This document shows positions 28,553-38,921 of a stretch of DNA of 64,000 nt, piece after piece. The stretch comes from Saccharomonospora cyanea NA-134 (GTDB taxonomy: Bacteria; Actinomycetota; Actinomycetes; Mycobacteriales; Pseudonocardiaceae). The stretch is from positions 1,663,538-1,727,537 of the forward strand of contig NZ_CM001440.1 of assembly GCF_000244975.1 (NCBI RefSeq), in the 5' to 3' direction. The translations under genes and the position numbers were made by a program. The stretch's first letter is position 1, and the number at the start of each line of letters is the position of its first letter. The notes under the pieces were generated by a model. The model saw only the letters and a list, made by a program, of their open reading frames with translations. It had not been told where the DNA came from and did no database searches.

Positions 28553-29416
28553 TCAGGCCGGGACGGGGTCGAGGACGAAGTCGTAGACCACGGTCTCGCC
28601 GTGGCCGTCGGCGGCGGGCTTCGGATCGAGGATGAGCTCCGGTTTCACCGCCGAGGCGATGTCGTCGTCGTTGTGCTCGTCGCCGGGGAAGTACAGCTGC
28701 GCGGTGAGCAGCTCGTGCCCCGGTGCGGAGACCTTGACGTGCAGGTGGGCCGGGCGCCAGGCGTGCCAGCCCGCGGCGGCGATCAGCTTGCCGCAGGCGC
28801 CGTCCGTGGGAATCCGGTACGGGGCGGGCCGCACGGTGCGGATCTCGAACTCACCGCCCGCGTCGACGGAGAACGTGCCCCGCAGGTTCCACTCGGGGAT
28901 GCCGGGTGCGAACTGCGAGTAGAGACCCTCGTCGTCGGCGTGCCAGAGCTCGACCTTCGCCTGGTCGAGGACGCTGCCGTCGGTGGAGGTGACCCGGCCG
29001 GTCCACACCAGGGGCGTTCCCGGCTCGTTCTCCCGCATCGGCACCGAGCCGTGCGAGCCGCGTTCGGGAGCGCCGGGCACGTAGTACGGGCCCTCGATGG
29101 TGCCCTTGTTGCCCTCCCGGTGCTCGGTCGCGACCTCCTCGACGACGTGTTCCACCCACACGTCGAGGAACAACGGCCACTCGCCGTCCTCACCCACGCT
29201 GATCAGCCAGGCCTTCAGCGCGTTGTACTCCTCGTAGGTCACCTTGTGCCTGCGGATCGTGTCGTGAACGGCACCGAGCACCTCGCGTGCCAGCAGGTCG
29301 ACGCGCTCCTTCGGCGTGTTCGCGACGCCGCCGAGCTTGTCGGCCTTGAAGCGTTCCGTGGCGTTGGCGCCGGAGTCGGCCGCGGTCGGGGCGGGGCCGT
29401 CGTGCAGAGCCGTCAT
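28553..29416 (-). CDS. catA: Catechol 1,2-dioxygenase
   Basis: An intradiol dioxygenase of 287 residues. The N-terminal helical dimerisation domain (about 20-110) is followed by the beta-sandwich catalytic domain. The Fe(III) ligands are visible as Tyr in EGPYYVPGAP, Tyr in the RPAPYRIP segment, and the two His of RPAHLHVKV. It opens catechol to cis,cis-muconate. GGAGG precedes the ATG by five bases. Located between catB and catC in one operon, 29 bp from each. Confidence 0.95.
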   Translation of the reverse strand: MTALHDGPAPTAADSGANATERFKADKLGGVANTPKERVDLLAREVLGAVHDTIRRHKVTYEEYNALKAWLISVGEDGEWPLFLDVWVEHVVEEVATEHREGNKGTIEGPYYVPGAPERGSHGSVPMRENEPGTPLVWTGRVTSTDGSVLDQAKVELWHADDEGLYSQFAPGIPEWNLRGTFSVDAGGEFEIRTVRPAPYRIPTDGACGKLIAAAGWHAWRPAHLHVKVSAPGHELLTAQLYFPGDEHNDDDIASAVKPELILDPKPAADGHGETVVYDFVLDPVPA

Positions 29417-29445: not shown

Positions 29446-30549
29446 TCAGGTGTCCTGGCGGTAGTGGGCGAGCTTGTCGGCGTCCACCTCGACGCCGATA
29501 CCGGAGCCGGGGCGGACGACCAGCTCGCCGTCCCGGATTTCCAGTGGTTCGGTGAGCAGGTCGTCGGCCATGTCGAGGAAGTTGGACAGCTCACCCGCGC
29601 GCCGGGAGGTGAGCCGGTAGGCGGATCCGAACGCGACGGTGCACATCGAACCGAGCTGACCGTCGATCTGGTTGCCCATCACGACTTCGAGACCGAGGCC
29701 CTCTGCCAGGTGGTGCACGCGCTGCGAGTGTGTGAACCCGGTGCGGGCGACCTTGATGCTGATCGCGGTCGCCGATCCGCCCAGCACCTCGCGGGTCACG
29801 TCGGCCGGTACGACCGCGGACTCGTCGGCGATGAACGGCACGTCGAGGTGGGAGACCAGCCATCGGCGGCCCAGCACGTCGTCGGCCGGGCACAGCTCCT
29901 CGGCGAAGAGCAGGTCGAGGTCGGCCATCTCCTTCATCGCACGGGCGGCCTCCGAGGCGGTCCAGCCCCGGTTGCCGTCGACGTAGAGTTCGACGTCCGC
30001 GCCGAGCGCTTCGCGGAGCGCCCGCACCACGGCGGTGTCGAGTTCGACCGGGCGGCGGCCCACCTTCACCTTGAACGTCGTGATGCCGTACGTCTCGCGC
30101 ATCCGCTCCGCCTCGGCCACCATGGCGGCGGGTTCGTCGAAACCGAGCATGTGCGACACGCGCATCCGGTCGGTGTAGCCGCCCAGCAACTCGGTGACCG
30201 GGAGGCCGAGCGTGCGTCCCAGCGCGTCCCACGCCGCCATGTCGATCGCGGCCTTGGCGACGGGGTTGCCGACGGTGCGACCCAGCAGGGCCACCATGGT
30301 CTCCCGTTCGAGCAGGCTCGACCCGACGAGCTGCGGCGCGAAGAGTTTCTCGATCACGGCGATGATCCCGGCCTGCGTCTCGCCGTAGGTGAACGGCCGC
30401 GGTGGCGCCTCGGCGATGCCGGTGACCCCCTCGTCGGTGTGCACGCGGACGAGGACGTGTTCGGCGACGTGGACCTCGCCGGAGGCGAACTTGAGCGGTT
30501 TGCGGTACGGGATGGCGAACGGGATCGCCTCGATCCGAGTGATTTTCAC
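29446..30549 (-). CDS. catB: Muconate cycloisomerase
   Basis: An enolase-superfamily enzyme of 367 residues. The catalytic lysine motif is FKVKVG. Metal ligands lie in ELYVDGNRGW (Asp), LLFAEELCP (Glu) and FIADESAV (Asp), and the base lysine in AISIKVARTG; VVMGNQIDGQLG follows. It turns cis,cis-muconate into muconolactone. The gene begins with GTG overlapping the stop of the LysR gene (GTGA), so the regulator and catabolic genes are co-transcribed. Confidence 0.94.
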   Translation of the reverse strand: MKITRIEAIPFAIPYRKPLKFASGEVHVAEHVLVRVHTDEGVTGIAEAPPRPFTYGETQAGIIAVIEKLFAPQLVGSSLLERETMVALLGRTVGNPVAKAAIDMAAWDALGRTLGLPVTELLGGYTDRMRVSHMLGFDEPAAMVAEAERMRETYGITTFKVKVGRRPVELDTAVVRALREALGADVELYVDGNRGWTASEAARAMKEMADLDLLFAEELCPADDVLGRRWLVSHLDVPFIADESAVVPADVTREVLGGSATAISIKVARTGFTHSQRVHHLAEGLGLEVVMGNQIDGQLGSMCTVAFGSAYRLTSRRAGELSNFLDMADDLLTEPLEIRDGELVVRPGSGIGVEVDADKLAHYRQDT

Positions 30550-31454
30550 GTGCTGGCTCTCCAGGGGCGGGATGGGGTGGGAAGGGCGGTCGCGAGAGTG
30601 TCGACCACCGACCGGACGAGGGGCGAGTCGTCGCCGTGCCGCCAGGCGAGCGCGAGCTCCACGGAACCGGCGTCGGTGAGGTCCCGGAACACCACGTCGG
30701 CGAGCGGCAGCGCACGGGCCGAGGCCGGAACCACTCCGATTCCGAGCCCGCCCGCGACCAGCGCGAGCAGCACACCCGTACCGGCCGCCTCGAGTTCCGC
30801 GCGCGGACTGAAGCCGGCGGCGTGGCAGGACCGCAGCACGGCGTCGTTCACCGTGGAGTCCTTGCTCGCGTAGACGACGAAGTCCTCGGCGCGGAGGTCT
30901 CCCATCGAGACGACGGGCTCGACCGCGAGGCGGTGATCGGCGGGGACCGCGAGGACCAACGGTTCGACCTCGACGGTGCGCAGCTCGATCCCTTCCCCCT
31001 GAGCCGGGGGACGCAGGATCCCGATGTCGAACTGCCCCTCACGCAACCCGTCACACTGCGCCGGAGTGAGCAGGTCGGAGTGGATCTCCAGGGCCACTCC
31101 GGGTAGCGCGCGTTTCACGGTGCGCGCGATGCCTGGTAGGTGGGAGAAGGCCGCGGTCCCGGTCAACGCGACCCGGACGACGCCGAGAGACCCGCCTGCG
31201 ATGCGCCGCACCCCGCGCACGCCGTCCTCCAGGCCTCCCAGGACACGCTGAGCCTCGACGAGGAAGAACTCCCCTGCGGGAGTGAGCCGGACCTGCCGGG
31301 TGGTGCGGGTGAACAGCGTGGCCCCGAGCTCCGCCTCCAGCTGCCTGATGGCCTGCGAGAGCGCGGGCTGTGCGATGTGCAGCTGCTCGGCGGCCCTACC
31401 GAAGTGGCAGGTCTGTGCCACCGCGACGAAGTAGCGCAGGTGACGAAGCTCCAT
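30546..31454 (-). CDS. LysR-family regulator of catechol/benzoate genes (CatR/BenM type)
   Basis: A protein of 302 residues. ELRHLRYFVAVAQTCHFGRA begins the winged helix, with LHIAQPALSQAIRQLEAEL as the recognition helix region. The effector domain spans about 90-295. The start at 31454 is chosen for this strongly conserved opening. It is first in the catBAC-benE operon and divergent from benABCD, with a LysR box at 31554-31576 between them. By analogy with CatR and BenM it should respond to cis,cis-muconate and perhaps benzoate. Confidence 0.9.
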   Translation of the reverse strand: MELRHLRYFVAVAQTCHFGRAAEQLHIAQPALSQAIRQLEAELGATLFTRTTRQVRLTPAGEFFLVEAQRVLGGLEDGVRGVRRIAGGSLGVVRVALTGTAAFSHLPGIARTVKRALPGVALEIHSDLLTPAQCDGLREGQFDIGILRPPAQGEGIELRTVEVEPLVLAVPADHRLAVEPVVSMGDLRAEDFVVYASKDSTVNDAVLRSCHAAGFSPRAELEAAGTGVLLALVAGGLGIGVVPASARALPLADVVFRDLTDAGSVELALAWRHGDDSPLVRSVVDTLATALPTPSRPWRAST

Positions 31455-31553
31455 CGCCGAACCTCCTTTCCGGCCCACACCGGCATCCCGGGCGGTCCGT
31501 GGGAACACGGTAGGTACTGACATTGAGTGAACACAAAGAGAACTTTGCGGGGG

Positions 31554-31576
31554 ATTGATAAGTGACACCGATCAAT
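31554..31576. promoter_or_regulatory. LysR-type operator (T-N11-A) between cat and ben operons
   Basis: ATTGAT (31554-31559) and ATCAAT (31571-31576) form a perfect 6-bp inverted repeat with exactly 11 bp between, the canonical LysR box; partly matched G and C runs extend it. It lies 100 bp upstream of the LysR start and 192 bp upstream of benA, in the 313-bp divergent spacer 31455-31767, which contains no gene. Its binding to the adjacent LysR protein is inferred. Confidence 0.7.
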
Positions 31577-31767
31577 CACCCCCTGGGTCAGGACTGGGTA
31601 TTTGCCTGGTGTAACGGGCGGGGTGGGTTTGCCATGGTCGTCGGAACGCCACAGCGATCTTCGGTCGCCAGGCCGATCAGAGTCGATCAAGGCCATCGCG
31701 AGGCTCACCAGGCGAGACTGCGGAGCGCAGCCCGTCCGGCCGAGCGTGGCCGGGCATGGAGGATGTC

Positions 31768-33165
31768 GTGACCCAGGATTTGGACCACGTTTCCGCCGTC
31801 CTCGCGGACGCCGTCGTGGAGGACCGCGACGCCGGTGTCTACCGGGCGAACCGTCGGATCTTCACCGACGAGGAGATCTTCGAACTCGAGATGAAGCACA
31901 TCTTCGAGGGCAACTGGGTCTATCTGGCTCACGAGAGCCAGCTACCGAATCCCGGGGACTACTTCACGACCTACATCGGCAGGCAGCCGGTCGTCATCAC
32001 CCGGGACAAATCCGGACGGCTGCACTGCCTGGTCAACGCGTGCGCGCACCGCGGTGCGATGCTCTGCCGCCGCAAGACCGACAACCGGCTGACGCTGACC
32101 TGTCCCTTCCACGGCTGGACCTTCCGCAACGACGGCAAGCTGCTGAAGGTGAAGGACCCCGACGGTGCGGGCTACCCGGCGTCGTTCGACACGGACGGCT
32201 CCCACGACCTCACGAAGGTGGCGCGGTTCGACAGCTACCGAGGGTTCCTGTTCGGCAGCCTCAACCCCGACGTGCCGAGCCTCGCCGAGCATCTCGGCGA
32301 CACCACGAAGGTCATCGACATGCTCGTGGACCAGTCGCCGGAAGGGCTGGAGGTGCTGCGGGGCGCCTCGACCTACACCTACGACGGCAACTGGAAGGTG
32401 CAGGCCGAGAACGGCGCCGACGGCTATCACGTCACGGCGACCCACTGGAACTACGCGGCCACGACCGCGCGCCGCAGCACGGGCGAGTCGGCGAACGACA
32501 CGAAGGCCCTCGACGCGGGCGGTTGGGGCAAGTCGGGCGGCGGCTACTGGTCGTTCCCGCACGGGCACCTGTGCCTCTGGACGTGGGCCGCCAACCCGCA
32601 GGACCGTCCTTTGTGGAATCGCATGGAGGAACTGAAGCAGGAGTTCGGCGATGCCAAGGGCGAGTTCATGGTTCGCGGATCCCGCAACCTGTGCCTGTAC
32701 CCCAACGTCTACCTGATGGACCAGTTCAGCACCCAGATCCGGCACTTCCGGCCCATCGCGCCCGACAAGACCGAGGTGACGATCTACTGCATCGCCCCGA
32801 AGGGCGAGAGCGCCGAGGCGCGGGCACACCGCATCCGGCAGTACGAGGACTTCTTCAACGCGTCCGGGATGGCGACCCCAGACGATCTCGAGGAGTTCCG
32901 GTCCTGCCAGTTGACCTTCCGCGCCACCGCCGCTCCCTGGAACGACATGAGCCGAGGCGCGGAGCACTGGCTGACCGGGCCGGACGAGGTCGCGAAGTCC
33001 CTGGGAATGGACGGCGTCATCTCCGCGGGTCAGAAGAACGAGGACGAGGGGCTCTACCCGGTGCAGCACGGCTACTGGCTGCGGACCATGCGGGAAGCGG
33101 TCGCGCGGGAACGGGCCCAGCAGACCGAAACGGCAGCGCCGCAGCCGGCCACGACCGACGCCTGA
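31768..33165 (+). CDS. benA: Benzoate 1,2-dioxygenase, large (alpha) subunit
   Basis: A ring-hydroxylating oxygenase of 465 residues. [20 protein letters not shown] is the conserved start. The Rieske [2Fe-2S] ligands are CAHRG and CPFHGW, and the mononuclear iron His pair lies in [10 protein letters not shown]. It dihydroxylates benzoate to the cis-1,2-diol with electrons from BenC. I chose GTG 31768 because GGAGG at 31758-31762 precedes it; ATG 31756 adds four residues and has no good site. First gene of the operon, with benB 10 bp downstream. Confidence 0.95.
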
Positions 33166-33175
33166 GGAGACCGCG

Positions 33176-33709
33176 ATGACAGTCACCACCGACCACGCCA
33201 CCGCCGGCACGGCCACGAAGACCATCACCCAGAACGACATCGAGCAGTTCCTCTACCGCGAGGCGCGCTACCTCGACGACCGCGAGTTCGAGAAGTGGCT
33301 CGACTGCTACGCCGACGACGTCGTCTTCTGGATGCCGTCCTGGGGTGACGACGACCTGCTGACCGAGGACCCGCACACCGAGATCTCCCTGATCTACTAC
33401 CCCAACAAGGGCGGGCTGGCCGACCGGGTCTTCCGCATCCGGACGGAGCGTTCCAGCGCCACCTCGATCCCCGAGCCCCGCACGAGCCACAACATCAGCA
33501 ACGTCGAGCTCATCGAGCGGCGCGGCGACCTCGTGGACGTGCGGTTCAACTGGCACACCATGTACTTCCGGTACAAGACCGTCGATCCGTACTACGGGAC
33601 CTCGTTCTACACGATCGACTTCTCCGGAGAGGCGCCGCTGATCCGGCGGAAGACGGTGGTGCTGAAGAACGACTACATCCACCACGTCGTCGACATCTAC
33701 CACATCTGA
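33176..33709 (+). CDS. benB: Benzoate 1,2-dioxygenase, small (beta) subunit
   Basis: A protein of 177 residues with the SnoaL/NTF2-like fold of dioxygenase beta subunits. IEQFLYREARYLDDREFEKW, WLDCYADDVVFWMPSW, SLIYYPNKGGLADRVFRI and the closing KTVVLKNDYIHHVVDIYHI are all typical. It has no metal and stabilises the alpha3beta3 complex. It follows benA after 10 bp with GAGGAGACC before the ATG. Confidence 0.94.
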   Translation: MTVTTDHATAGTATKTITQNDIEQFLYREARYLDDREFEKWLDCYADDVVFWMPSWGDDDLLTEDPHTEISLIYYPNKGGLADRVFRIRTERSSATSIPEPRTSHNISNVELIERRGDLVDVRFNWHTMYFRYKTVDPYYGTSFYTIDFSGEAPLIRRKTVVLKNDYIHHVVDIYHI

Positions 33710-33729
33710 GCCGTCCGGAGTCTTCGACG

Positions 33730-36054
33730 ATGAGCTACCAGGTTGCCTTGTCCTTCGAGGACGGTGTCACCCGTTTCATCACCTGCGGCGACGACCAGAC
33801 CGTGGCGGACGCGTCCTACCGCCAGCGCATCAACATCCCGCTGGACTGCCGGGACGGGGCGTGTGGCACGTGCAAGGCGTTCTGCGAGTCGGGCACCTAC
33901 GACGGCGGCGACTACATCGCGGACGCGCTGTCGCCCGACGAGGCGGCGGCCGGATACGTGCTGCCGTGCAGCATGAAGCCGAGGTCCGACCTCGTCCTGC
34001 GCATCGCCAGTACCTCGGCCGTCGCCAAGACGCGGGCGGCGACGTTCACCGGAACACTGACGGAGCTCGACCGGCTCTCGCCGACGACCGTCGCGGTGAC
34101 CGTGGAGACGCCCCAGCGCGATCAGCTGGCCTTCCTGCCCGGTCAGTACGTCAACGTCACCGTCCCCGGCACCGGGCAGAGCCGTTCCTACTCGTTCAGC
34201 AACGCGCCGGACGACGAGCGGTTGACGTTCCTGGTGAAGCTGACGCCCGGCGGCGTGATGTCCGACTACCTGACCGACCGTGCCGCGGTGGGTGACGAGC
34301 TCACGTTCACGGGACCGAACGGGAGTTTCTTCCTGCGCGACACCGACCAGCCGTTGCTGTTGCTGGCCGGCGGCACCGGATTGGCGCCGATCCTGTCGAT
34401 CCTGCGCGCGCTCCGGGCGTCGGGGTCGACCCGGCCCGCGCACCTGCTCTACGGCGCCACCACCGACGACGACGTCGTCGAGCTGGACACGCTGCGTGAA
34501 CTGGCCCGGCAGTTGCCCCGGCTGACGTGGGACTACTGCGTCGCCGATCCGGGGAGTTCGGCGCCGAACAAGGGGTTCGTGACGAGCCTGATCGGTGACG
34601 AGCACCTGCACGGCGGCGACGTCGAGGTGTACCTGTGCGGGCCTCCGCCCATGGTGGAGGCCGTGCGCAAGCACTTCGCGGACCTGGGTGTGCAACCGGC
34701 CGGTTTCCACTACGAGAAGTTCGCCTCCTCCAGCGCCTCCTCCAGCGCCTCCTCCAACGCCTCGGCCGCCTCGGACCCGGCCGGAGTCACAACGGCCGAG
34801 GCCGCTGCGGCGGAGGTCGTGGAGGCGGAGGTGGAGCCCGCCGAGCCGGAAACCCGACCCGCCGCGCAGGCCGTGACCAGCCCGGGCGACCGGGTCGAGC
34901 CGGAGCCGGTTCCGGATCCCGAGCCGGCCACCCCGGCACTCGCCGTGGGCGAGGGACGCGACCTCGCGGGCCGACCGGTCTTCCCCACCGCGGACATCCG
35001 GCCACCTCGTGGTGGGTCGCGGACCGACCCCGCTGCGGAGAGCGCGGCCCTGCGCGCGGTCGCGGGCCAGGTGATCTGGTCCGGCGACGGAAAAGGCGAC
35101 GGTACCGGCGGCCGTGGCCTGGATCCCGGTGACACACCGCATGCCACCGGCACGGCTCGGGCGATCGCCGGGCAGGAGATGTTGCCTCCCCTCGACGGTC
35201 TCGCTCCGCTCACGGCGCCACCGGCGGCCCCGCCCACGACCGACAGCGCCACGAGACGGCCCCGCTTCGTCAGTCCCGGCCGCTTCGACGGCAAGGTCGT
35301 CGTGGTGACCGGCGCGGCCCAGGGCATCGGGGAGCACACCGCTCGGCGCATCGCCGCCGAGGGCGGCACCCTGGTCCTCGCCGATCGGTCCGACCTCGTC
35401 ACCGAACTCACCGACGAGCTGACCCGGGAGGGCACGGAGACCACGGCTGTCACCGCCGACCTCGAAACCTGGGACGGCGCCCGGAAGGTGGTCGAGGCGG
35501 CGCTGACCCGGTTCGGCCGGATCGACGTGCTGATCAACAACGTCGGCGGCGCGATCTGGTTCAAGCCGTTCACGGAGTTCACGCAAGCCGAGATCCAGGC
35601 GGAGATCAACCGCTCGCTGATGACGACGCTGTGGTGCTGCCGCGCGGCGCTGCCGTCGATGGTGGAGCGGGGCGGCGGCGTGGTGGTGAACGTGTCGTCC
35701 GCGGCCACGCGCGGGGTGCACCGCATCCCGTACTCCGCGGCCAAGGGCGGCATCAACGCGATCACCGCGTCGCTGGCGTTCGAGTACGCAGACGCGGGCA
35801 TCAGGGTGGTCGCGACGGCACCGGGCGGCACCGAGGCCCCGCCGAGGCGCGTCTCCCGGGGCGGCTCCGCGCTGGAGACCGAGCAGGAACGGGCCTGGTT
35901 CCAGGCGCACATCGACCAGACGATCGGCTCCTCGCTGCTCAAGCGGTACGGCACCCTCGACGAGCAGGCCGCGGCGATCACGTTCCTCGCCTCGGACGAG
36001 GCCTCCTACATCACCGGCACCGTGTTGCCCGTCGCGGGCGGTGACCTGGGTTGA
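33730..36054 (+). CDS. Fused BenC reductase and BenD cis-diol dehydrogenase
   Basis: A protein of 774 residues in one uninterrupted frame. Residues 1-95 form a plant-type [2Fe-2S] ferredoxin (CRDGACGTC, with the fourth Cys in VLPCSM). About 100-330 form the FAD/NAD reductase (RSYSFSN, GGTGLAP, CGPPPM). About 331-515 is a low-complexity Ala/Pro/Glu/Ser linker. About 516-774 is an SDR dehydrogenase with TGAAQGIG, INNVGG and YSAAK, matching BenD. BenC feeds electrons to BenAB and BenD oxidises the diol to catechol, so the fusion joins NADH use and NADH production in one chain. In most known operons these are two genes. The SDR part has no separate start with a good ribosome site. Confidence 0.92.
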   Translation: MSYQVALSFEDGVTRFITCGDDQTVADASYRQRINIPLDCRDGACGTCKAFCESGTYDGGDYIADALSPDEAAAGYVLPCSMKPRSDLVLRIASTSAVAKTRAATFTGTLTELDRLSPTTVAVTVETPQRDQLAFLPGQYVNVTVPGTGQSRSYSFSNAPDDERLTFLVKLTPGGVMSDYLTDRAAVGDELTFTGPNGSFFLRDTDQPLLLLAGGTGLAPILSILRALRASGSTRPAHLLYGATTDDDVVELDTLRELARQLPRLTWDYCVADPGSSAPNKGFVTSLIGDEHLHGGDVEVYLCGPPPMVEAVRKHFADLGVQPAGFHYEKFASSSASSSASSNASAASDPAGVTTAEAAAAEVVEAEVEPAEPETRPAAQAVTSPGDRVEPEPVPDPEPATPALAVGEGRDLAGRPVFPTADIRPPRGGSRTDPAAESAALRAVAGQVIWSGDGKGDGTGGRGLDPGDTPHATGTARAIAGQEMLPPLDGLAPLTAPPAAPPTTDSATRRPRFVSPGRFDGKVVVVTGAAQGIGEHTARRIAAEGGTLVLADRSDLVTELTDELTREGTETTAVTADLETWDGARKVVEAALTRFGRIDVLINNVGGAIWFKPFTEFTQAEIQAEINRSLMTTLWCCRAALPSMVERGGGVVVNVSSAATRGVHRIPYSAAKGGINAITASLAFEYADAGIRVVATAPGGTEAPPRRVSRGGSALETEQERAWFQAHIDQTIGSSLLKRYGTLDEQAAAITFLASDEASYITGTVLPVAGGDLG
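34723..34758 (+). repeat. Three tandem 12-bp repeats in the BenC-BenD linker
   Basis: GCCTCCTCCAGC occurs twice in tandem (34723-34746), followed by a third copy with one mismatch (34747-34758), encoding repeated Ala-Ser-Ser-Ser. It marks the start of the flexible linker. Such repeats can expand or shrink by slippage without a frameshift. Confidence 0.85.
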
Positions 36055-36200: not shown

Positions 36201-38921
36201 ATGACGGAAGCCGCCACCCCGCTGATCGGTCGCGACGGCGACCTGGCGGAGCTGGAACGACGGCTGTCGCAGGCCGGTGAGGGCCGCGCACACGTCGTCG
36301 TGGTCAGCGGACCGGCGGGTGTCGGCAGGACCGCGCTGGTCGAACGGTTGGCCGACCGGCACGGCGGGCCGGTGCTGCGGGCCACGGGGATGCCGTGGGA
36401 GGCGCGGAACGACTACGGGGTGCTGGCCCAGCTGATGCCGGCTCTGGACGTGGCGGGTGATCCGGTCGAGGTGGCGGCCCGCTTCACGGCGGGACTCGCC
36501 ACGAGTGAGGACACCACGCTCGCCGTCGTCGACGACGCCCACCTCGCCGATCGGCGATCACTGCAGGTCCTCGCGTCGGCGGTGCGGCATCATCCGCAGG
36601 CCCGGTTGCTCGTCATGGCGACGGCCGTGACGGACGACCCGACCCTGCCCGCGGACGTACTCGACCTGCTGCCGCGCATCGCCACCGCCGAGATCACGCT
36701 GGCACCGCTGAGCGCCCCCGAGGTGAGCCGGTTGGCGGCGGCGCGGGGGGTGTTCCTGCATCCGTCGATGGCGGAATCGCTGTGGCGGCACACGCACGGC
36801 AGGCCACGCCCCGTCGTGCAACTGCTCGCCGAGGTGCCCCACTCGACGTGGGCACGGTTCGACCCGACCCTCCCCGCCCCCGCGGCCGTCGCCGCCCGCG
36901 TGCGTGAGCGGTTGAGCCGGTGCTCACCCGCAGCCCGAGCGCTCGCCGAGGCGGCGGCCGTGCTGGGGCCGGGCACCGCGGCGCGGGACGTCGCTCGCCT
37001 CGCCGGGATCGAGGGCGATCTGCTGTCCGTGCTCGACGAGGCGTACACCACCGGGCTCGTCGAGTTCGCGCCGCGAGGGCTCACCGAGGTGGCTCCTCGC
37101 GATTCGATGGTGCGGGCCGCGGTCCTGGCCGCGATGGGGCCCGCGGCGGCCGCCGCGGCGCACCGGCGCGCCGCGGACCTGATGGACGATCCGGCGCGGA
37201 GACTCCGGTTGCTCGTCGCCGCGTCGCCGGTGCCCGATCCCGCGGTCGCCGACCAGCTCGACACGTTGGCCGCCGAGCACGCGGCCGTCGGGGCGTGGGG
37301 GACCGCGGCGTCGTTGCTCCACGACTCGAGCCGGCTCACCGACGACCGGTTGCAGCGTGAGAGCCGCCTGACGCGGGCCGTCGACGCCTCCATCGGGGCG
37401 GGCGACGTCTTCGCCGCGGCGGCCCTCGTTCCCGAGGTGGAGAGCCTGCGCGAGACACCACTGCGCAACGCGGTCCTGGGATACCTGGCGATCGTGCGCG
37501 GACGGGCGGTGGAGGCCGAGTCCCGGCTGGGCCGGGCCTGGGCTCTGGTGAACGCCGAACGCGACCCGGACGTCGCGGCCCAGATCTGCCAGCGGTACGT
37601 GCTCCACGCACTCATGCGGGGGCGAGGGGAGGAGCTGGTCACCTGGGCGGACCGCGCCGTCGCCCTGGCGGGCCCGGAGGCGCCGGCGGCCGTCGAAGCC
37701 GCGGCCATCCGAGGTCTGGGGCTCGCGGGGACGGGACGCGCGCGGCAGGCGATGGCCGACTACGCGGATCTCGGTGAGCGGGTCCGGCGCGGTGCCCAGG
37801 CGCAACGGGTCGTGATGGCGCGCGGCTGGCTCAACCTGACGGTCGACGCGATCGACGACGCGCGAGCCGACCTCGCGAGCGCGGTGCCCACCACGTTCCT
37901 CGGTGGCTCCACCCGGATCTCCCTGTGGGCGCGGGCGTGGCTGGCGCGGGCCCAGTTCCTCGCCGGGGAGTGGGACGAGGCCGTGCGCACCGTCCGCGAG
38001 GCGAATCCGCTGCTCGAACGCAGCGGGATCGTGCTCGCGGCTCCGCTGCTGCACTGGACCGCGGTGGCCGTGCACGCCCTGCGCGGTGAATGGGAGGCGG
38101 CCGACGAGGCTCTGCGCCGGTGCGACGCGGGCCCGCAGGACTACGAGTTGATGCGCGTCGCCTCCTACCTGGCGCACGCGCACCTGGCCGAGGCGCGAGC
38201 GGACTCCTCGGGCGTGCTGCGCGCACTGCACCCGCTCACCCAACCGTGGGCGGGCGGCAGCATCGACGAACCGGGCCACTGGCCCTGGCACGACATGTAC
38301 GCGCACGCGCTCGTGGTCGAGGGCCGGTACGCCGAGGCCGGCACCTTCCTGCGACGGCACGAGCGGCTCGCCGCCGACCGCGGGTGCGCGTCGGCCGTCG
38401 CGCGCCTGGCAGCCGCCCGGGGGCGCCTCCTCGGAGCCCAGGGCGATCTGGCGGGCTCGACCACCGCCTTCGAACAGGCACTCGAGACGCTCGAAACCCT
38501 GCCGCTGCGCTACGACCGGGCCCGCGTCAATTTCGCGTACGGGCAGACACTGCGCCGGGCGGGCAAGCGCCGCAGGGCGGACACCGTGATCTCGACAGCG
38601 CGGGAGATCTTCGCCAGTCTGGGGGCCACGACGTACGTGGCGCGCTGTGATCGTGAACTCAAGGCAGGTGGGATGCACGCTGCCCGGTCGGGCCGTGAGG
38701 CGGGCGAACTGACGCCCCAGGAGGAGGCCGTCGCCGAGCTGGTGGCCCGTGGCCTCTCCAATCGTGAGGTCGCCGCCGAACTGTTCCTGGCCACCAAGAC
38801 CGTCCAGTACCACCTGACCCGCGTCTACGCGAAGCTCGGCGTCCGTTCCCGCGCGGAGCTCGCCGCCCGCCGCTCGTCGAGCGGCAGTCCCGCCCCCTCG
38901 ACTCGACAGGAGATCGGATGA
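36201..38921 (+). CDS. Large ATP-binding LuxR-family (LAL) regulator
   Basis: A protein of 906 residues. An N-terminal STAND/AAA-type NTPase (LIGRDGDLAELE, P-loop GPAGVGRTAL near residue 36, Walker B-like LAVVDDAHLAD) is followed by a long helical TPR-like middle region. A C-terminal LuxR helix-turn-helix (ELTPQEEAVAELVARGLSN, then VQYHLTRVYAKLGVRSRAEL) ends the protein. The P-loop lysine is replaced by Arg. ATG at 36201 is chosen because the upstream extension to 36051 is Arg/Ala-rich and overlaps the benCD stop. It sits between benCD and pcaD and overlaps pcaD, so it likely regulates the benzoate genes. Confidence 0.85.
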   Translation: MTEAATPLIGRDGDLAELERRLSQAGEGRAHVVVVSGPAGVGRTALVERLADRHGGPVLRATGMPWEARNDYGVLAQLMPALDVAGDPVEVAARFTAGLATSEDTTLAVVDDAHLADRRSLQVLASAVRHHPQARLLVMATAVTDDPTLPADVLDLLPRIATAEITLAPLSAPEVSRLAAARGVFLHPSMAESLWRHTHGRPRPVVQLLAEVPHSTWARFDPTLPAPAAVAARVRERLSRCSPAARALAEAAAVLGPGTAARDVARLAGIEGDLLSVLDEAYTTGLVEFAPRGLTEVAPRDSMVRAAVLAAMGPAAAAAAHRRAADLMDDPARRLRLLVAASPVPDPAVADQLDTLAAEHAAVGAWGTAASLLHDSSRLTDDRLQRESRLTRAVDASIGAGDVFAAAALVPEVESLRETPLRNAVLGYLAIVRGRAVEAESRLGRAWALVNAERDPDVAAQICQRYVLHALMRGRGEELVTWADRAVALAGPEAPAAVEAAAIRGLGLAGTGRARQAMADYADLGERVRRGAQAQRVVMARGWLNLTVDAIDDARADLASAVPTTFLGGSTRISLWARAWLARAQFLAGEWDEAVRTVREANPLLERSGIVLAAPLLHWTAVAVHALRGEWEAADEALRRCDAGPQDYELMRVASYLAHAHLAEARADSSGVLRALHPLTQPWAGGSIDEPGHWPWHDMYAHALVVEGRYAEAGTFLRRHERLAADRGCASAVARLAAARGRLLGAQGDLAGSTTAFEQALETLETLPLRYDRARVNFAYGQTLRRAGKRRRADTVISTAREIFASLGATTYVARCDRELKAGGMHAARSGREAGELTPQEEAVAELVARGLSNREVAAELFLATKTVQYHLTRVYAKLGVRSRAELAARRSSSGSPAPSTRQEIG

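Follow-up and report, generated by a model that had tools for sequence, protein, structure and literature searches.

An FCD-less benC-benD Fusion Gene in Saccharomonospora cyanea and Its Relatives Among the Actinomycetes

Introduction

The fusion of benC with benD has been described for Gordonia alkanivorans YC-RL2. In the accessible part of that 2019 report, the two genes are fused and include an FCD domain (PMC6362181). An FCD-containing benC with a separate benD is given for Rhodococcus sp. TG-1 in the excerpt of its report available here (PMC11858498). For R. ruber Chol-4, the portion of the paper at hand labels benC as reductase and dehydrogenase and also lists benD (PMC6498646). Another literature match, "benCD," proved to be an intergenic region of Pseudomonas stutzeri and was discarded.

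The FCD domain is the metal- and ligand-binding effector domain of FadR-type GntR regulators. According to the available sections of the respective reports, a divalent metal is held at an FCD-type site in CitO (PMC4746285) and in DgoR, where Arg 102 is needed for ligand binding (PMC7674646).

The DNA analyzed here, referred to as the window, is a stretch of 64,000 nucleotides from Saccharomonospora cyanea NA-134. The initial annotation of this window held that known ben operons encode two proteins. This is wrong for actinomycetes, in which the fusion is widespread and, for Gordonia, already in print. The window copy is an FCD-less form of it.

Organization of the Locus

The fusion gene comes directly after benA and benB and is followed directly by a regulator gene. 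The genes and the parts of the fusion are as follows.

28553 to 29416, reverse strand: catA, catechol 1,2-dioxygenase (TIGR02438, 487.8 bits, cut-off 404.4)
29446 to 30549, reverse strand: muconate cycloisomerase-like gene (best match TIGR02534 at 201.9 bits, under the cut-off of 334.95)
30546 to 31568, reverse strand: LysR-type regulator, divergent
31756 to 33165, forward strand: benA, benzoate dioxygenase large subunit (TIGR03229, 807.2 bits, cut-off 780.95)
33176 to 33709, forward strand: benB, small subunit (TIGR03232, 271.1 bits, cut-off 225.55)
33730 to 36054, forward strand: benC-benD fusion gene, an open reading frame of 774 codons plus stop
33730 to 34731, forward strand: BenC part, residues 1-334, with 2Fe-2S ferredoxin, FAD, and NAD domains
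34732 to 35277, forward strand: linker, residues 335-516, Ala/Pro-rich, no Pfam match
35278 to 36051, forward strand: BenD part, residues 517-774, short-chain dehydrogenase
36201 to 38921, forward strand: AAA_16 plus LuxR-type regulator gene

The fusion frame opens with ATG and has no internal stops. The first reading of this DNA, that a single 774-residue frame joins a BenC reductase to a BenD dehydrogenase, was confirmed with two NCBIfam equivalog profiles, and both parts score above the curated cut-offs. Residues 3-334 match NF040810 at 485.8 bits (cut-off 430; profile positions 1-333 of 333) and residues 518-774 match NF040811 at 428.3 bits (cut-off 380; profile positions 1-256 of 256). 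When 50 relatives were aligned, Cys 40, 45, 48, and 80 of the BenC part fell in invariant columns, as did T527, G528, A530-G534, D552, S656, Y668, and K672 of the BenD part. The column of N604 is nearly invariant. S656, Y668, and K672 are taken to be the catalytic Ser, Tyr, and Lys, and the residues of the SDR cofactor motif were likewise assigned from general knowledge of the family.

From these family memberships we infer the two activities. BenC presumably passes electrons from NADH through FAD and the 2Fe-2S cluster to the BenAB oxygenase, and BenD presumably converts the cis-diol carboxylate to catechol and CO2 and returns NADH. Elsewhere in the genome, the runner-up matches have only 31% (BenC-like) and 38% (BenD-like) identity, so apart from the domains of the fusion there is no good candidate for either step.

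The GC content at third positions is 0.925 for BenC, falls to 0.834 for the linker, and is 0.957 for BenD. The linker shows a weaker coding bias, and in some of its 26-codon pieces the GC of position 1 is as high as, or higher than, that of position 3. An antisense open frame of 737 codons (33697 to 35910, minus strand) lies opposite the fusion gene and is probably a by-product of high GC. The AlphaFold model of the window protein is weak, with a mean pLDDT of 69.6 and a pTM of 0.43.

The Linker and Its AGQ Motifs

The 182 residues of the linker include Ala 36, Pro 27, Gly 19, Thr 15, Ser 14, and Glu 13. Ala, Pro, Glu, and Ser, in which it had been called rich, make up 49%. The description holds for Ala and Pro, but Glu and Ser do not outnumber Gly and Thr. 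The following features were located in and next to it.

34722 to 34763, forward strand: 12-bp tandem repeat, 3.5 copies, 96% matches, coding Ser/Ala
34957 to 34983, forward strand: AGQ copy 1, degenerate, RDLAGRPVF, residues 410-418 (alignment)
35053 to 35079, forward strand: AGQ copy 2, RAVAGQVIW, residues 442-450 (alignment)
35158 to 35187, forward strand: AGQ copy 3, RAIAGQEMLP, residues 477-486 (alignment)

The 12-bp repeat is where it had been reported, at the start of the linker. Inspection by eye of the linker of L009, a locus of the same genus, did not show it. The AGQ motif has the consensus R-x-h-A-G-Q-x-h-h-P (h, hydrophobic) and occurs in three copies about 30 residues apart. The two similar blocks noticed at first in the linker are the second and third copies of this conserved motif, and the degenerate first copy had gone unnoticed. 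With two clear copies and one degenerate copy, the window is counted among the three-copy linkers, and the strict pattern fits two of its copies only.

In 75 aligned fused proteins, the first slot keeps G in 72 and Q in 70, and the third slot keeps G in 70 and Q in 72. The second slot is present in 66 of the 75, with G in 63 and Q in 62 of these. In most linker columns outside the motifs, no residue is common to half of the 75 rows. A loose form of the pattern occurs 220 times in 79 linkers versus 26.5 +/- 4.9 times in shuffles, an excess that is inflated by sequence kinship and by some matches at the start of BenD.

At least one strict copy was found in the linkers of 72/74 scan and 28/33 survey BenC-FCD-BenD fusions (both samples are described below), and three strict copies in 38/74 and 16/33, respectively. 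The other seven linkers show weaker forms by eye, although L118 has hardly any. All eight BenC-BenD rows (five distinct proteins) have at least one strict copy. L164, at first included among the carriers of the motif, has the sequence AETGQ, which fails the stricter pattern. The strict pattern is absent from all 43 BenC-FCD survey loci and present in one of 26 BenC-alone survey loci, L130. Since it occurs in fused rows with or without FCD and in none of the 43 unfused BenC-FCD loci, the motif tracks the fusion to BenD rather than the FCD. As a guess, it might serve to dock the protein to the oxygenase or to BenD.

A second family bearing the motif was sought with a profile of the array over 41 genomes. 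Among the best candidates (at most 135 per genome), strong matches were found only in ben fusions, in four genomes, with E-values of 1.9e-24 to 1.7e-16. The best match outside the fusions (E 0.0015) was rejected as a 465-codon frame that is by eye a glycosyltransferase. Ten further matches had E-values of 0.02-0.08 or were second matches in the same fusions. Both AlphaFold models draw the motifs as short hairpins, in blocks with a pLDDT of about 41-62. The known ferredoxin part of BenC is also low, and thus neither hairpin nor disorder is claimed.

The FCD Domain

The usual layout of the fused proteins is BenC-linker-FCD-BenD. The FCD-bearing relatives have 229-399 residues between BenC and BenD. 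The domain scored above the Pfam cut-off in all five long fused relatives and all four unfused BenC-FCD proteins that were scanned, and a home-made profile found it in 74 of 78 fused scan loci. In the window protein and locus, FCD was not found by Pfam (PF07729) or by the home-made profile. Its place in the relatives corresponds to the following stretch.

35200 to 35260, forward strand: approximate place of the FCD of relatives (about 155 residues), none in the window (alignment)

A move of the domain to another place in the same genome was looked for, and only four FCD matches were found. They were rejected because their frames, of 231-285 codons, are the size of ordinary GntR regulators. The same-genus locus L009 also has no FCD match.

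The domain of the relatives appears to be intact. All 151 of 151 rows retain three His and one Arg, and 148 of the 151 an Asn. These rows come from overlapping sets and include some near copies. The FCD profile matches the structures of NanR, McbR, and PdhR (E 0.00019, 0.00035, and 0.0013), and the His and Arg residues line up with those of PdhR in the profile alignment. With a single sequence in phmmer, the best GntR match was only E 0.86. A Foldseek search with the model of L016 listed BenC-like reductases and short-chain dehydrogenases among its top 50 and was uninformative on FCD. By analogy, the Arg may be the counterpart of the ligand Arg of DgoR, and a metal would be bound at this site.

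Distribution of the Fusion

The same fusion in other actinomycetes was searched for, as the initial annotation had proposed. A scan of one genome per species gave 196 confirmed loci, of which the best 80 were read. A one-frame BenC-BenD fusion is present in 78 of these 80, with 77 distinct BenC sequences, a proportion that is not a frequency since the scan ranks fusions first. The other two loci are L043, with a frame-broken benC, and L058, at a contig end. In L043 (Saccharomonospora sp. CUA-673), a frame change, either real or an assembly error, breaks benC, the linker and BenD are open, and no FCD match was seen.

A less biased view comes from surveys with the BenC profile. In the window's family, 29 of 150 genomes have a match, in its order 20 of 249, and in its class 14 of 394, in sets that overlap. 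In two other families, the counts are 100 of 301 and 40 of 197 genomes. For these last two, rows were fetched best scores first (the best 30 of 100 and the best 30 of 45). Among the 105 fetched loci, BenC-FCD-BenD accounts for 33, BenC-BenD for 3 (one of them the window), and BenC-FCD, where benD is outside the frame, for 43. The remaining 26 have BenC alone and include L134, which is below the BenC cut-off. The 29 loci of the window's own family are 20 BenC-FCD-BenD, 3 BenC-BenD, no BenC-FCD, and 6 BenC alone. In the first of the other families, 51 of the 70 rows without a new locus have open frames of at least 850 codons, which suggests fusion there as well.

Descent of the Fusion

In a FastTree of BenC with 164 rows, all 96 fused rows and L130 form one clade with support of 100, and the BenC of the window branches inside it. 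This clade nests in a 127-row group with unfused rows of family f8 (support 88). The tree left out L002 (never classified), L039, L043, L058, L075, L134, and identical sequences. It has many open forks, and no single branch separates the outgroup from the remaining rows. Towards the root, BenC-alone rows are intermingled with BenC-FCD rows, and the tree gives no single point for the first gain of FCD.

The stop codon overlaps a downstream start as ATGA or GTGA in 40 of the 43 BenC-FCD loci, and similarity to BenD begins 14-65 bases on. The same overlap is present in 22 of the 26 BenC-alone loci. Where the genes overlap in this way, a small insertion or deletion could have fused them. On the basis of the BenC tree, the actinomycete fusion looks like a single event.

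A quick BenC plus BenD tree of 75 fused rows, without the fused scan loci L039, L064, L075, and L089, has the FCD-less rows scattered and needs a minimum of 5 changes. L011 and L012 fall within well supported FCD-bearing groups, and the positions of the window, L010, and L013 are less firm. A fair range from these trees is that FCD was lost 3 to 5 times among the fused rows, with the window as one of the cases. L011 retains a remnant of the domain, YEIGEEHPS joined to SERSKATMRRAM, and its nearest row, L024, has a whole FCD.

Several loci have taken other courses. In the same-genus locus L009 (positions 1498-2829, genome G010), hardly anything of benC is left, and a single open frame of 444 codons covers the AGQ linker and BenD. 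It adjoins a muconate cycloisomerase-like gene, and benA and benB were not seen in the stretch read. L130 (genome G332) is a member of the fused clade in which the genes are split again. Its BenC ends soon after one AGQ motif, benC overlaps the GTGA start of benD, and there is no FCD match. L163 (genome G772) has a BenC without FCD among unfused BenC-FCD relatives, and apparently its lineage lost the domain too.

Plasmid Relatives

A search of plasmid proteins with FCD gave six records, one Tsukamurella fusion and five Paraburkholderia plasmids. The Tsukamurella locus (L212:5001-7583, NZ_LR134459.1) holds a whole BenC-BenD fusion that is annotated as BenC, with BenD hidden. As this one annotated fusion is named for BenC alone, genomes of actinomycetes can seem to lack the BenD step. 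In Paraburkholderia sp. FT54 (L211:2984-5770, NZ_CP134198.1), a 929-residue protein annotated benC has BenC (503.3 bits), then FCD (61.9 bits), and then cytochrome P450. This BenC-FCD-P450 layout is full-length in all five Paraburkholderia records, at 90-100% identity, and the cytochrome P450 match was also seen in L218. A literature search on a cytochrome P450-FCD-reductase fusion found no paper. FCD follows BenC into two unrelated fusions, and therefore it seems tied to the reductase rather than to BenD. Its presence in five Paraburkholderia plasmids makes BenC-FCD look like a movable module.

Discussion

The window gene is very probably a bifunctional benzoate-pathway enzyme that descends from the actinomycete fusion, has since lost its FCD, and uses the linker as a tether. 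From the relatives, we infer the following order of events. The starting point would have been BenC-FCD with a stop codon overlapping the downstream start. A one-frame BenC-[three AGQ motifs]-FCD-BenD would have come next, and FCD would then have been lost in the lineage of the window and a few others. The present linker would thus be a tether in which two AGQ motifs are in good shape and the third has decayed. Its benefit may be that two consecutive steps are held on one chain and their ratio is fixed.

It is unlikely that BenD is also made as a separate protein, by cutting of the linker or from an internal start, with BenC and BenD acting apart. In favor of this reading, the linker is long, has an Ala/Pro-rich composition, and is modeled with low confidence. 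No ATG, GTG, or TTG is in frame within the 30 codons upstream of PGRF (residue 516), the core motif of BenD. Just beyond this range, ATG 484 and TTG 485 are in frame after an AGGAG that touches the ATG and lies 3 bases before the TTG, an unusually short spacing. An internal start for BenD in the window is judged unlikely. Among the relatives, 111 of 115 fused rows have an in-frame start within 30 codons of BenD, and 13 have a Shine-Dalgarno-like stretch. Against separate proteins, the three-copy motif is conserved in the linker, which is more than a discarded spacer needs, and there is one clear re-split (L130) among 97 rows of the fused clade.

Direct transfer of NADH from BenD to BenC within the fusion, the cofactor channel suggested in the initial annotation, is unsupported and slightly less probable still. 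From what is presumed of the families, NADH is consumed by BenC and NAD+ by BenD, with both on one chain. However, between the two parts lie 182 residues that match no Pfam family, most fused relatives have another domain between them, and NADH is abundant and diffuses freely. A tether of this length suggests co-localization at most.

That a sequencing or assembly error joined two genes, the possibility raised at the outset as fatal to the fusion, can be dismissed: one indel would fuse the frames at the stop-start overlaps of the unfused relatives, but one-frame fusions recur in 78 of the 80 loci read (the best of 196), in records of other species that form one clade, and L009 of the same genus has linker and BenD in one frame.

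A bifunctional, tethered enzyme thus remains the preferred reading of the window gene. A broader and tentative proposal, possible but well short of probable, is that BenC-FCD is a reusable module for ligand-gated delivery of electrons, joined to BenD in actinomycetes and to P450 in Paraburkholderia, with the AGQ motifs docking the chain. The FCD, whose presumed site for metal and carboxylate is unchanged, would sense an aromatic or hydroxy-carboxylate and would gate the electron flow of the reductase, sparing NADH when substrate is absent. The cis-diol of benzoate belongs to the alpha-hydroxy acids, as do known ligands of FCD domains, citrate among them. If this proposal were true, the lineage of the window would be an experiment of nature, with the sensor gone and the docking motifs for the most part retained.

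The family offers an ordered series in a well studied pathway, from overlapping genes to fusion to domain loss. It also raises the question of what an apparently intact ligand domain of the regulator type does inside an electron-transfer enzyme. Natural pairs with and without FCD, such as L024 and L011, are ready comparisons.

Comparison with Known Systems

Gordonia alkanivorans YC-RL2 is like the window in having benC and benD in one frame and LysR and LuxR regulators beside its operons. It differs in that its fusion carries FCD, and in the accessible part of its report the fusion is not followed across species (PMC6362181). Rhodococcus sp. TG-1, from the excerpt available (PMC11858498), and the 43 BenC-FCD survey loci have the same reductase family with FCD appended to BenC. 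Those survey loci have a separate benD gene and lack the AGQ motif, whereas the window is fused and has it.

Compared with the GntR/FadR regulators TM0439, CitO, and DgoR, as covered in the sections available (PMC4746285, PMC7674646), the FCD of the relatives keeps three His and one Arg. Unlike those regulators, it sits in an enzyme, with a DNA-binding domain absent among the Pfam matches, and the window has no FCD. The Paraburkholderia protein resembles the actinomycete fusion in having BenC, then FCD, then a second catalytic domain. Its partner is P450, the gap between BenC and FCD is only about 19 residues, and the AGQ array is absent. Also, unlike the operon of the window, benA and benB are not among the annotated genes of that stretch.

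Proteobacterial plasmids carry benC and benD of the same two families, with 55-62% identity in the 39 listed matches excluding Tsukamurella. Their two aligned pieces lie close together and are two genes where annotated, whereas the window has one frame. The BenC structure 1KRH belongs to the same enzyme family as the BenC part of the window.
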